Source of the DNA: a virus
Virus record (IMG/VR): IMGVR_UViG_3300025300_000110
Location: 1 to 22,096 of that record
DNA: 22,096 bases
Reading direction: 5' to 3' (one strand)
How positions within the stretch are numbered: the first letter of the stretch is position 1; the number at the start of each line of letters is the position of its first letter. Under the pieces are notes generated by a model, which saw nothing but the letters and a program-made list of their open reading frames with translations, did not search any database and was not told where the DNA came from. Shown here piece after piece: positions 14,251-19,577 of the stretch. The translations under genes were made by a program, and so were the position numbers.

Positions 14251-14338
14251 GGTTCTGACGTGCAGCCCAGAACCAGCAACCTGATACCGCGCGCCGCCGT
14301 TCACCTCTGGGGCTGCACACCTCTAGGCGGCGCGCGGT
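14251..14338 (+). other. Two hairpins with complementary loops (candidate structured RNA)
   Basis: Hairpin 1 pairs GGTTCTG (14251-14257) with CAGAACC (14268-14274). Hairpin 2 is a perfect 13-bp stem, 14286-14298 with 14326-14338, core CCGCGCGCCGCC/GGCGGCGCGCGG. The 10-nt loop of hairpin 1 holds GTGCAGCC (14260-14267), the exact reverse complement of GGCTGCAC (14311-14318) in the 27-nt loop of hairpin 2. That loop also holds CACCTCT twice. The region lies in the 133-bp gap before a micropeptide and the putative replication gene. No T tract follows, so it is not a standard terminator. Confidence 0.7.
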
Positions 14339-14361
14339 TACGGGTTGCGGGAGCATTTCAC

Positions 14362-14460
14362 ATGCTGACGCTATTCTGGTGCGTGGTCGCCGTGTACGGC
14401 CTGTTGGCCGTCTCGCCCTGGGTCTACGAACAGGGGAAGCGCGATGGCATCTGCAAATGA
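14362..14460 (+). CDS. Single-pass membrane micropeptide
   Basis: The 32-aa peptide begins MLTLFWCVVAVYGLLAVSP and ends with a charged tail, GKRDGICK: one hydrophobic segment of about 17 residues followed by a positively charged end. GGGAG (14349-14353) lies eight bases before ATG 14362, better than the upstream in-frame start at 14260, which would run through the hairpin region. It overlaps the putative replication gene by 17 bp. Function unknown; small membrane peptides of this kind can act in lysis or host interference, but nothing here decides that. Confidence 0.55.
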   Translation: MLTLFWCVVAVYGLLAVSPWVYEQGKRDGICK

Positions 14461-15298
14461 ACACCAGCAGCAATTTGGCAAGGTGCCCACGAGCGTGGTG
14501 CTGGCCGGTCGCCTAGCAGGTCAGACCCGCAGCGGGCTAGCGGTGTACCTGGTACTGGCCGCGACGGGCCAGGGGTGGGTGGCATCGCCTTCGGTTGCGA
14601 CCATCGCCGCCGCCACCGGTTGCAGCCGCCGCACGGTTCAGCTGGCCCTGCGTGCCCTGGAATCTGCGGGCCTGATACGGGCCACCGGCCGCCCTGGAGG
14701 GGGCGCAATTTCGTATGAAATCACCACCAGCGAGGCGCAACTGGGAGCGCCACGAGGCGCAACCGGGGGCGCCACGATGCGCAGCCCAGATTGCGCCCAT
14801 ACAGAGTTAACAGATTTAACAGAAGCAGCAGAGCCTGCTGCTGGGTTGATTTCTCTTCTGGAGGGGGCAGGTATCGGGGAACCGACGCGGGGCAAATTGG
14901 CCGACGATCTGGCCCGACGTGGCGTCACTCGTGGCGACGTCGCCACCACGATCAGCGACACAAAGGCCACCGGCGGTGGCCCAGGCTTGATCGTGGCCCG
15001 CCTGCGTGACCTGTCGCAGCGTCGGACGAGGGCAAGGGCGTCAGCGACGGCCGAAGCGTCGACGCGGTCAGACGGCCGCCAGCGGGATCAGGAGTACCGC
15101 CGCCGAGTGGACGAGGAACGCCGAAGCCGCGACGCGGTGCTGGCCGGTTATACCGATGCGGAATTGGGCGCCGTCGCGTCGACGGTCGCGGCCGCGTGCC
15201 CATTGTTCGCGGGTCGAAATTGGCGAACGAACCAGGGGTTCAGGTCGGCGATGGTGCGGCACCTGGCAACGGCGACCCGCCAGGCGGCGACCGCATGA
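14444..15298 (+). CDS. Winged-helix protein, putative phage replication initiator
   Basis: The 284-aa product has an N-terminal winged helix-turn-helix at about residues 25-90 (SPSVATIAAATGCSRRTVQL is the helix-turn-helix core, followed by ALRALESAGLI and a Gly-rich wing). A linker rich in Gly, Thr and Ala follows, and a C-terminal helical region includes GKLADDLARRGVTRGDVATT and GLIVARLRDL, reminiscent of replication proteins of phages that combine an HTH with a helicase-loader-interacting region. It may bind the origin; the assignment is inferred from architecture and from its place at the start of the DNA-metabolism module. It overlaps the following nuclease gene by ATGA. Confidence 0.7.
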   Translation: MASANEHQQQFGKVPTSVVLAGRLAGQTRSGLAVYLVLAATGQGWVASPSVATIAAATGCSRRTVQLALRALESAGLIRATGRPGGGAISYEITTSEAQLGAPRGATGGATMRSPDCAHTELTDLTEAAEPAAGLISLLEGAGIGEPTRGKLADDLARRGVTRGDVATTISDTKATGGGPGLIVARLRDLSQRRTRARASATAEASTRSDGRQRDQEYRRRVDEERRSRDAVLAGYTDAELGAVASTVAAACPLFAGRNWRTNQGFRSAMVRHLATATRQAATA

Positions 15299-18151: not shown

Positions 18152-18574
18152 ATGGCAGGAAGACCACCAGCAAATGACGAGATAACGCGATCCTTGACGA
18201 TGGTCCGAATCGAATTCATGATCCCCGACCCCGAGCAGGGCGGCGACCTTCTCCGCGATCAAATCCAGGCGGTGCTGCTCGCCATGGAGGAGGCCCGCCC
18301 CCACCTGGGGGCCCATGTCACCGCCCGCATCATGGCCGTCGACCGAAGCGGCGACGTCTGGTGGAGCCCGTCATACGAACCCCTGGTCATGCTGTCGACC
18401 TGGGACACCTCGACCCTCGACGCGTGCCCAGAGTGCGGCGTCGACATCACGCAGCTGGAACCCCTCTGGCACTGGTGCAGACGTGACGGGGCACGATGTT
18501 ATTGTTCGCAGGAATGTCTTCGTCGGGCGATGGTCGCCGCCGCCGACCCGTGCCCGAGAGGGGGTGAAGCATGA
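18152..18574 (+). CDS. Hypothetical zinc-finger protein
   Basis: The 140-aa product has an N-terminal alpha/beta part (LTMVRIEFMIPDPEQGGDLLRDQIQAVLLAMEEARPHLG) and a C-terminal metal-binding segment with CPECG, then WHWC, GARCYC and CSQEC, enough ligands for one or two zinc sites. No family recognised; a protein-protein or nucleic-acid binding role is possible. It begins at ATG 18152 with GGAAAAAG a few bases upstream and overlaps the next gene by ATGA. Confidence 0.75.
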   Translation: MAGRPPANDEITRSLTMVRIEFMIPDPEQGGDLLRDQIQAVLLAMEEARPHLGAHVTARIMAVDRSGDVWWSPSYEPLVMLSTWDTSTLDACPECGVDITQLEPLWHWCRRDGARCYCSQECLRRAMVAAADPCPRGGEA

Positions 18575-18783
18575 AAATCAAACGCATATCGTGCGCCCAG
18601 CGGGTCTGGGTGCTGGACTACCTGGAGCGGTACAAGCACCTGACGCCCCTCCAGGCCCTGAAGGGCGGCGGGATCATGCGATTGTCCGCCAGGATCGGCG
18701 AATTGCGCAACCAGGGCCACAACATACGCACCGAGATGGCCGTCGAGCGTGGCCGCCGGTTCGCCCGCTATTGGCTGGAATGA
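18571..18783 (+). CDS. HTH_39-type helix-turn-helix protein
   Basis: The 70-aa product matches the small phage helix-turn-helix family HTH_39: VLDYLERYKHLTPLQALKGG, then GIMRLSARIGELRNQGHNI, then a C-terminal basic RRFARYWLE strand. Family members are common in phages and prophages and are usually of unknown role. Its DNA-binding character and its position right beside the repeat array that begins at 18784 make it a candidate for the protein that binds those repeats, but this is inference. It starts at the ATGA overlap with the previous gene. Confidence 0.85.
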   Translation: MKIKRISCAQRVWVLDYLERYKHLTPLQALKGGGIMRLSARIGELRNQGHNIRTEMAVERGRRFARYWLE

Positions 18784-18786
18784 CCT

Positions 18787-18867
18787 AGATCCGATCTAGA
18801 TCCGAATCGGCCAGGAAAGATCCGAAAAAGATCCGAATCGGCCAGGAAAGATCCGATCTAGACCCGA
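18787..18867. repeat. AGATCCGA iterons, phased 11/20 bp
   Basis: AGATCCGA occurs at 18787, 18798, 18818, 18829 and 18849, with AGACCCGA at 18860. The distances alternate 11, 20, 11, 20, 11 bp. Two identical 28-bp blocks (18798-18825 and 18829-18856) account for the pattern, period 31 bp, about three helical turns. Further AGATCC sites lie at 19021 and 19041. Confidence 0.9.
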
Positions 18868-18989
18868 TCATTTTAGTTTCACGGCGTCATTTTAGTTTCA
18901 TTTGGGTTTCATTTGGGTTTCATTTTAGCTTTAGAGCTTCATTTGACCTTCATTTGACCTTCATTTGACCTTCATTTTAGCTTCGCAAG
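18868..18989. repeat. AT-rich TCATTT array with 11-bp period
   Basis: TCATTT starts at 18868, 18887, 18898, 18909, 18920, 18939, 18950, 18961 and 18972. The gaps are 19, 11, 11, 11, 19, 11, 11 and 11 bp. Full units include TTTCATTTGGG twice and CTTCATTTGAC three times. By hand count the roughly 120-bp tract is about 35 percent G+C, far below the coding regions around it. It could act as a DNA unwinding element or a bent-DNA site. Confidence 0.9.
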
Positions 18990-19022
18990 ATGCAACCTAG
19001 ATGCAACCTAGATGCAACCTAG
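18990..19022. repeat. Three tandem ATGCAACCTAG 11-mers
   Basis: Three perfect copies of ATGCAACCTAG start at 18990, 19001 and 19012 and continue the 11-bp phase of the TCATTT array. The array is bounded on both sides by an ACCTAGATCC sequence (18783 and 19017). The following CCAAATGA (19025-19032) is an inverted copy of TCATTTGG. Confidence 0.92.
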
Positions 19023-19047
19023 ATCCAAATGAGCCCGAAAAGATCCA

Positions 19048-19139
19048 AATCGGCACATACCACGGATTTCTCAGGGTCGACCCTGAGAACAGGAATCGGC
19101 ACATACCACGAATTTCTCAGGGTCGACCCTGAGAACAGG
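19048..19139. repeat. 46-bp tandem direct repeat carrying 22-bp palindromes
   Basis: Copies 19048-19093 and 19094-19139 differ by one base (G19065 against A19111). Each contains a perfect 22-bp palindrome whose core is CTCAGGGTCGACCCTGAG (19068-19089 and 19114-19135). As DNA it suits a dimeric repressor; as RNA each makes a 9-bp hairpin with a 4-nt loop. It ends a few bases before the ribosome-binding site of the next gene. Confidence 0.92.
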
Positions 19140-19148
19140 AAATCCCCG

Positions 19149-19577
19149 ATGGAAACCATCCAAATCATTGAGAATTACAAGAGCGACAAGGCCCGCGACC
19201 TGGAGGTGGCCCAGGGCCATTCCAAGACCGCCGAAGCGAACCTGACGGCAGCAGAACGGGCCCTGGCCGACGCTACCATGCGCCAATTCGTTTGTCGGTT
19301 GCGGATGGCCCCCCATATAATGGTGCCAGGCGACGTTCTGGCACTAGGGGCTGTATGTATGCGTGTTCTTTTGTCGGTTCTGGCGGCCGCAATCCTGGCA
19401 GGATGCGTGCCCGCCGATCGTGCGTTTCGGGAGGTTGAGGGGCCCGCAAAGCTTGGCATCATGTCGCCCTGGGGCGTCTCTATGAGCGTCGACATAGAGG
19501 AGGGCGGCCGCTACTTCGCAGGCCCCGAGTTCGACAGCGTCGACCTGTATCACGCAGGAGACGCGACCGATGAGTGA
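19149..19577 (+). CDS. Hypothetical protein with internal lipoprotein start
   Basis: From ATG 19149 (AGGAAA just upstream, right after the palindromic repeats) the frame is open for 142 aa. The first part is a charged helix likely to form a coiled coil (METIQIIENYKSDKARDLE to LADATM). Residues from 71 are a lipoprotein signal (see 19359). Either this is one protein with an internal membrane segment, or the region is a nested pair in one frame where the second start gives a lipoprotein. No family recognised. It overlaps the next gene by eight bases. Confidence 0.55.
   Translation: METIQIIENYKSDKARDLEVAQGHSKTAEANLTAAERALADATMRQFVCRLRMAPHIMVPGDVLALGAVCMRVLLSVLAAAILAGCVPADRAFREVEGPAKLGIMSPWGVSMSVDIEEGGRYFAGPEFDSVDLYHAGDATDE
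19359..19577 (+). CDS. Small lipoprotein (candidate outer-spanin-like or surface lipoprotein)
   Basis: From the in-frame ATG 19359 the 72-aa product has a classic lipoprotein signal: MRVLL, a hydrophobic core SVLAAAILAG, and the lipobox LAGC with the cysteine at residue 16. AGGGG at 19346-19350 lies eight bases upstream. The mature part is about 57 aa with GIMSPWGVSMSVDIEEGGRY. Phages use such lipoproteins as outer spanins in lysis or for superinfection exclusion; nothing here separates these. It is followed directly by a small coiled-coil protein and a membrane micropeptide. Confidence 0.62.
   Translation: MRVLLSVLAAAILAGCVPADRAFREVEGPAKLGIMSPWGVSMSVDIEEGGRYFAGPEFDSVDLYHAGDATDE

Follow-up and report, generated by a model that had tools for sequence, protein, structure and literature searches.

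The window, as the whole stretch of DNA analysed here is called, comprises the 22,096 bases of the IMG/VR virus genome IMGVR_UViG_3300025300_000110, a record classed as linear, and all its main reading frames lie on the + strand. The window annotation places the genes coding the small terminase (position 1), the large terminase (539), the portal (2098), the protease (3764), the HK97-type capsid protein (4489) and the tape measure protein (10223) ahead of an early operon. This operon codes an O-like initiator (14444), which has an HTH_36 domain and matches phrog_1032 (E 4.5e-10) among others, a tyrosine integrase (int, 15702), a Dcm-type methylase (16805) and an HTH_39 protein (18571–18783). 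Further downstream are found genes for a laminin-G-like protein (20614) and for an HNH protein recognized by motif (21844), the latter cut by the end of the window. A homologue of this HNH gene sits upstream of the terminase in several relatives, and the window therefore probably represents an almost complete genome in circular arrangement. In L004 and L015 an additional gene, coding a DNA methyltransferase-like protein (DPPYG motif on reading; 9087–9742 in L015) and missing in the window, is inserted between int and the Dcm-type methylase gene.

Among bacterial genomes, the large terminase is best matched in three Phycisphaerae assemblies (47–48% identity), and the integrase is matched in 184 of 397 Phycisphaerae genomes, the best among the matches listed having 27–41% identity. 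These similarities point to a host that is probably a Planctomycete. Planctomycetes phages are poorly known and the control regions of uncultured phages are rarely identified. The deep-sea Planctomycetes phage Phage-ZRK32, whose genome has 21.9 kb, differs, when compared by description, in carrying an amidoligase and other metabolic genes (PMC10945688), none of which was seen in the window.

A short tandem array of 13-bp units (GGGGAATTCCCAT and the palindromic GGGAATTCCC) precedes the small terminase gene at positions 5–71. It is expanded in L018 (1811–1928), and a number of contigs of this phage start close to it; packaging-site or regulatory repeats are a possible identity. Note that L018 has the terminase and portal region in common with the window while its upstream positions 1–1800 are unrelated and contain, on reading, a ParB-like gene, which suggests a mosaic relative or a chimeric contig. 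A large inverted repeat (14273–14351) with 26-nt arms that are 85% complementary and no T-run lies after the tail genes and before the initiator gene; it is possibly a terminator or a regulatory hairpin.

The early operon is separated from the late operon by 365 bp, the largest gap between main reading frames when the start of the next one is taken at the ATG at 19149, which is preceded by an SD-like AGGA. Two elements fill this gap. The first is an array of short direct repeats at 18784–19047, and the second, directly 3' of it, is a 46-bp tandem duplication (19048–19093 and 19094–19139, 92 bp in total) whose copies are 98% identical. Each copy carries the perfect 22-bp palindrome TTCTCAGGGTCGACCCTGAGAA (19068–19089 and 19114–19135), a possible dimer operator or hairpin. 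The preliminary description of this DNA, made from the sequence alone, ended the element at 19047 and missed the duplication. It had correctly observed that the stretch is gene-free, as no ORF of at least 60 aa is found inside the array, and that it begins directly after an HTH_39-type gene (Pfam PF14090, E 2.7e-12), the end of which at 18783 immediately precedes the first base of the array.

The array is composed of 11-bp units. Its lag-11 self-match is 0.625, against a mean of 0.255 (sd 0.028, maximum 0.356) in 2,000 dinucleotide-preserving shuffles and 0.36 for the next best stretch elsewhere in the window; the direct spacing of 6- to 8-base cores by 11 bp is far beyond chance. Three blocks can be delimited. 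The left block (18784–18867) consists of AGATCCGA units in a 31-bp higher-order repeat (11+20 bp), with five full copies (18787, 18798, 18818, 18829 and 18849; steps of 11, 20, 11 and 20 bp) followed by AGACCCGA; the AGATCCGA sequence occurs nowhere else in the window. The middle block (18868–18984) has nine TCATTT copies over 18868–18972, spaced by 19, 11, 11, 11, 19, 11, 11 and 11 bp, which define a 52-bp higher-order repeat. The right block (18985–19047) contains AGATGCAACCT three times, AGATCCAAATGAGCCCGAAA and AGATCCA, or, by unit parse, AGATGCAACCT/AGATCCAAA units; ATGCAACCTAG recurs in it at 18990, 19001 and 19012, and an AGATCC pair at 19021 and 19041. All repeat counts and spacings given previously for 18784–19047 are thus correct. 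The four repeat families then distinguished are present and can be grouped into two kinds of unit, AGAT[CG]C.. and TCATTT.., arranged as 11-bp units with 8–9-bp inserts. That almost all steps are multiples of a helical turn holds for the 11-bp runs and not for the 19- and 20-bp steps, although the 31- and 52-bp higher-order units are nearly whole turns; outside the 11-bp runs, the indication that helical phase is maintained is no more than suggestive (p about 0.03–0.13).

The composition of the array is also particular. It has 42% G+C in a window of about 62%, and its middle 120 bp, at 35% G+C as previously stated, are the lowest of the window (next lowest, 44%). Positions 18919–18978 form the least stable 60-bp duplex of the window (-73.0 kcal/mol, compared to a mean of -94.3 and sd of 5.2 kcal/mol). 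GATC is dense in the left block, which holds 8 of the 10 GATC sites of the array while 99 are found in the whole window, a density of possible relevance to adenine methylation.

Iterons combined with an AT-rich unwinding region had led the preliminary description to consider a replication origin. In such a phage origin the repeats would bind the O-like initiator or another protein and the AT-rich middle block would unwind. The iteron-like direct repeats, the least stable DNA of the window, the O-like initiator encoded at 14444 and a cumulative GC skew that stops rising near 18 kb are consistent with this view. However, the change in skew is weak and not V-shaped, and a search of the array for consensus DnaA and IHF sites found none. 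Furthermore, the initiator gene has its own lambda-type iterons and AT-rich stretch. Directly 3' of the segment coding the winged-helix (residues 33–89), three 22-bp palindromic iterons (14732–14797; two GAGGCGCAACYGGGNGCGCCAC and one degenerate) are followed by the AT-rich ACAGAGTTAACAGATTTAACAG (14799–14824), and 14799–14858 ranks among the least stable 60-bp stretches of the window. The iteron motif GGCGCAACYGGGNGCGCC, a putative O site, has its only exact copies in the initiator gene (14734 and 14756), and allowing as many as 4 mismatches brings up no match in the array. Positions 14672–14831, a stretch of about 160 bp picked post hoc, differ by 1 substitution from L015 while the whole gene is 94% identical. 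The origin of lambdoid phages, which combines iterons with an AT-rich tract, is situated centrally within O (PMC7466680). The array resembles such origins in its direct repeats beside AT-rich DNA, but in this genome their anatomy is found inside the O-like gene and not in the array. Because of this lambda-type anatomy at 14732–14824, and of the missing iteron motif and DnaA box in the array, the origin reading of the array is weakened and we regard it as unlikely. The region 14732–14824 appears to be the better candidate for a lambda-O-type origin and, if this is right, the lambdoid plan would reach as far as a phage from a distant phylum. An O-dependent origin in the array is then not needed, though the array may melt easily.

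The region of the array is covered by two relatives, L003 (99.8% identical to the window) and L004 (mostly 91–95% identical), and the array is present in both, as the preliminary description had proposed to check in related phages. Its copy number changes in whole units between them. Compared with the window, L003 is two TCATTTGGGTT units shorter and carries an extra TCATTTGACCT. In L004 the right block is reshuffled, the 46-bp repeat is present as a single copy, and a 31-bp unit as well as an 11-bp unit are missing. As copy number differs between relatives, the exact unit counts may depend on the strain or on the assembly; a collapsed assembly is possible, given the variable copy number and the metagenomic source of the contigs. 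The left and middle blocks align with those of L004 over 159 bp (53 left, 106 middle) with 0 substitutions. The genes around them have diverged: int differs at 81 of 1089 positions (7.4%), of which third codon positions account for 57 of 363 (15.7%), the gene at 18152 at 29 of 419 (6.9%) and the HTH_39 gene at 11 of 213 (5.2%). At the int rate about 12 substitutions would be expected in 159 bp. The identity of the two blocks would reflect either constraint or a recent exchange or conversion between strains, which two genomes cannot discriminate.

These comparisons bear on the possibility that replication slippage in a spacer produced the array as a variable-number tandem repeat devoid of function. 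Like such repeats of phage spacers, it varies in unit copy number between near-identical genomes, even between the window and L003; other short-unit arrays exist in the same phage lineage, and many IMG/VR contigs carry 11-bp tandem arrays with arbitrary hexamers. Unlike plain variable-number repeats, it has no substitution across 159 bp while flanking genes diverge by 5–7%, the order and boundaries of its blocks are kept, and its AT-rich composition is maintained within a 62% G+C genome. No 11-bp-period array of at least 40 bp was found in a scan of 178 TerL- or integrase-related loci (2.36 Mb). Conservation thus argues against junk DNA, with the proviso that two genomes are little evidence, and a slippage product appears quite improbable. 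The TCATTT hexamer as a special shared phage motif was rejected, since at 11-bp spacing it occurs in 53 IMG/VR loci, many with homogeneous arrays, and the scrambled hexamer TTACTT in 107 with a similar share of identical spacers; the neighbouring genes share nothing obvious.

Since the window codes a tyrosine integrase, the attP region of a temperate phage, with integrase arm-type and excisionase sites, was also considered. At attP, the sites of RDFs are short direct repeats that follow each other at intervals of about one turn (PMC7498355), and several repeat families combined in one stretch would agree with such a region. The array lies 2.0 kb from int, with three genes in between, and attP usually adjoins the integrase gene, although this is not strictly defining. 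The window has no tRNA gene, and scans with the integrase over phages, plasmids and genome contigs gave no usable integrated relative for an attL/attR comparison. The 22-bp palindrome is symmetric, as opposed to a directional att core, and its 18-bp centre has 0 occurrences in the 397 Phycisphaerae genomes, even with one mismatch. We consider an attP function of the array doubtful on these grounds. No HTH_39 gene was found in the same genomes either.

A role at the RNA level, with the middle and right blocks pairing as a long hairpin in an untranslated leader and the palindromes forming further hairpins, was rejected as very improbable. The folding scores are good (z -8.2 for array and palindromes, -4.8 for the array alone) and the + strand pairing of middle and right blocks is, narrowly, the best of 64 block-wise base-swap/reversal variants. 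Nevertheless, several of these variants lie less than 1.2 kcal/mol away, folding of the minus strand is about as good, and the structure is not kept in the 99.8% identical L003, where unit changes weaken the predicted energy from -78 to -58 kcal/mol. The array has no Rfam family match, and good folding comes with inverted repeats inside any tandem array, whatever its function.

The array is probably a protein-bound control element. Lying where the early genes end and the late genes begin, it is well placed for a transcription switch, and late-gene control fits its anatomy better than a replication origin. Of the functions suggested in the preliminary description (origin, partition or late-gene control), the regulatory locus is thus backed by conservation and by the early/late position, the origin being the weaker reading. 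The statement that no described element has this composite of repeats was too strong, as tandem hexamers one turn apart have been described as operators of phage 186 Apl and of other recombination directionality factors (RDFs; PMC7498355). In phage 186, Apl recognizes six-base operators in direct repeats spaced by 10–11 bp, of which the pR–pL region has seven and attP has five. Highly cooperative head-to-tail binding with one protein per turn is common to Apl and to the Xis proteins of lambda, Gifsy-1 and Pukovnik; DNA bending has been reported for several proteins of this type (PMC7498355). The same head-to-tail mode is used at promoters by BldC, a winged-helix protein of 68 residues (PMC5859096), and a one-turn head-to-tail mode was proposed for RdfS (PMC11963761).

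The correspondence with the Apl/Cox/Xis operators includes cores of about 6 bp in direct repeats 10–11 bp apart (PMC7498355), the presence in the phage of a tyrosine integrase and a small winged-helix protein, and a site at a transcription junction. The array differs from them in being much longer, with about 20 units of two cores instead of 5–7 of one, and in adjoining two 22-bp palindromes. The BldC operators of Streptomyces (smeA-ssfA, whiI) are likewise cooperative direct repeats, with one turn per molecule at smeA-ssfA (PMC5859096), and BldC and the HTH_39 protein (70 aa) are both single-domain winged-helix proteins. BldC is, in contrast, MerR-like and chromosomal, and its reported units are fewer and less regular than those of the array. 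The array would be an unusually long form of an operator layout already known.

The explanation we place first, tentatively, is that the array serves as operator for a small winged-helix protein that would bind cooperatively, one monomer per turn. Direct repeats of 11 bp, one helical turn, would let such proteins assemble head to tail, with one monomer on each unit, coating and bending the DNA. The array and the two palindromic sites together would constitute the control gap between early and late operons, and the likeliest job of the array would be a transcription switch at this junction. It might have an additional job as accessory site in recombination, in the manner of the dual-purpose Apl/Cox/Xis operators. 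That a protein binds the array and forms filaments there, which protein this is, and what it does to regulation are all points that we infer from this arrangement. Two ligands, or two modes, are suggested by the presence of both AGATCC and TCATTT units. In an elaborate version, which we find improbable, AGATCC-type and TCATTT-type proteins (winged-helix or arm-binding, head-to-tail) would form adjoining filaments over the 264-bp AT-rich stretch as a composite one-turn operator, a nucleosome-like early/late switch whose copy number would be an evolvable set-point.

The first candidate ligand would be the HTH_39 protein encoded immediately upstream. Its AlphaFold2 model (mean pLDDT 90) has three helices and a wing. 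Comparison of the model with known structures gave many generic winged-helix matches with tied Z scores among which no RDF stands out; no RDF or Xis entry is among the structure matches listed, which was not weighed either way. HTH_39 is, unlike Apl/Cox/Xis, not an established RDF family, and it is presented as candidate ligand only. Other HTH_39 genes, from L006, L008, L009 and L010, have on reading no such array 3' of the gene. If the operator explanation is true, the locus would provide an unusually long and regular one-turn array that tests how filament-forming winged-helix proteins count sites, and a function would be assigned to an HTH_39 protein.

The first reading frame past the array (19149–19577) consists of a truncated 43-codon remnant that continues in frame into a lipoprotein-like gene (ATG at 19359). 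The fused remnant is also found in L003, while L004 codes a full protein of 210 aa; the deletion junction is at 19279/19280, where about 577 bp of L004 are missing from the window and from L003. Assignment by eye of a HARE-HTH carboxyl terminus to the L004 product was not retained, as Pfam gave no match and the fold is of low confidence there. A search within the array for a consensus sigma-70 promoter found none. A promoter-like TTGTCG-18-TATAAT precedes the lipoprotein-like gene (19292–19321, + strand; 10/12 match, 0.6 expected by chance), and the same hexamers are found in L004. A second phased array, made of 10-bp units (GTCGCAATAC GCTGCACCAC ...), is missing in the window and L003 because it was removed by the deletion at 19279/19280. 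It is present in L004 (6140–6208) and L015 (12362–12410), directly upstream of the promoter-like site that they have in common with the window.
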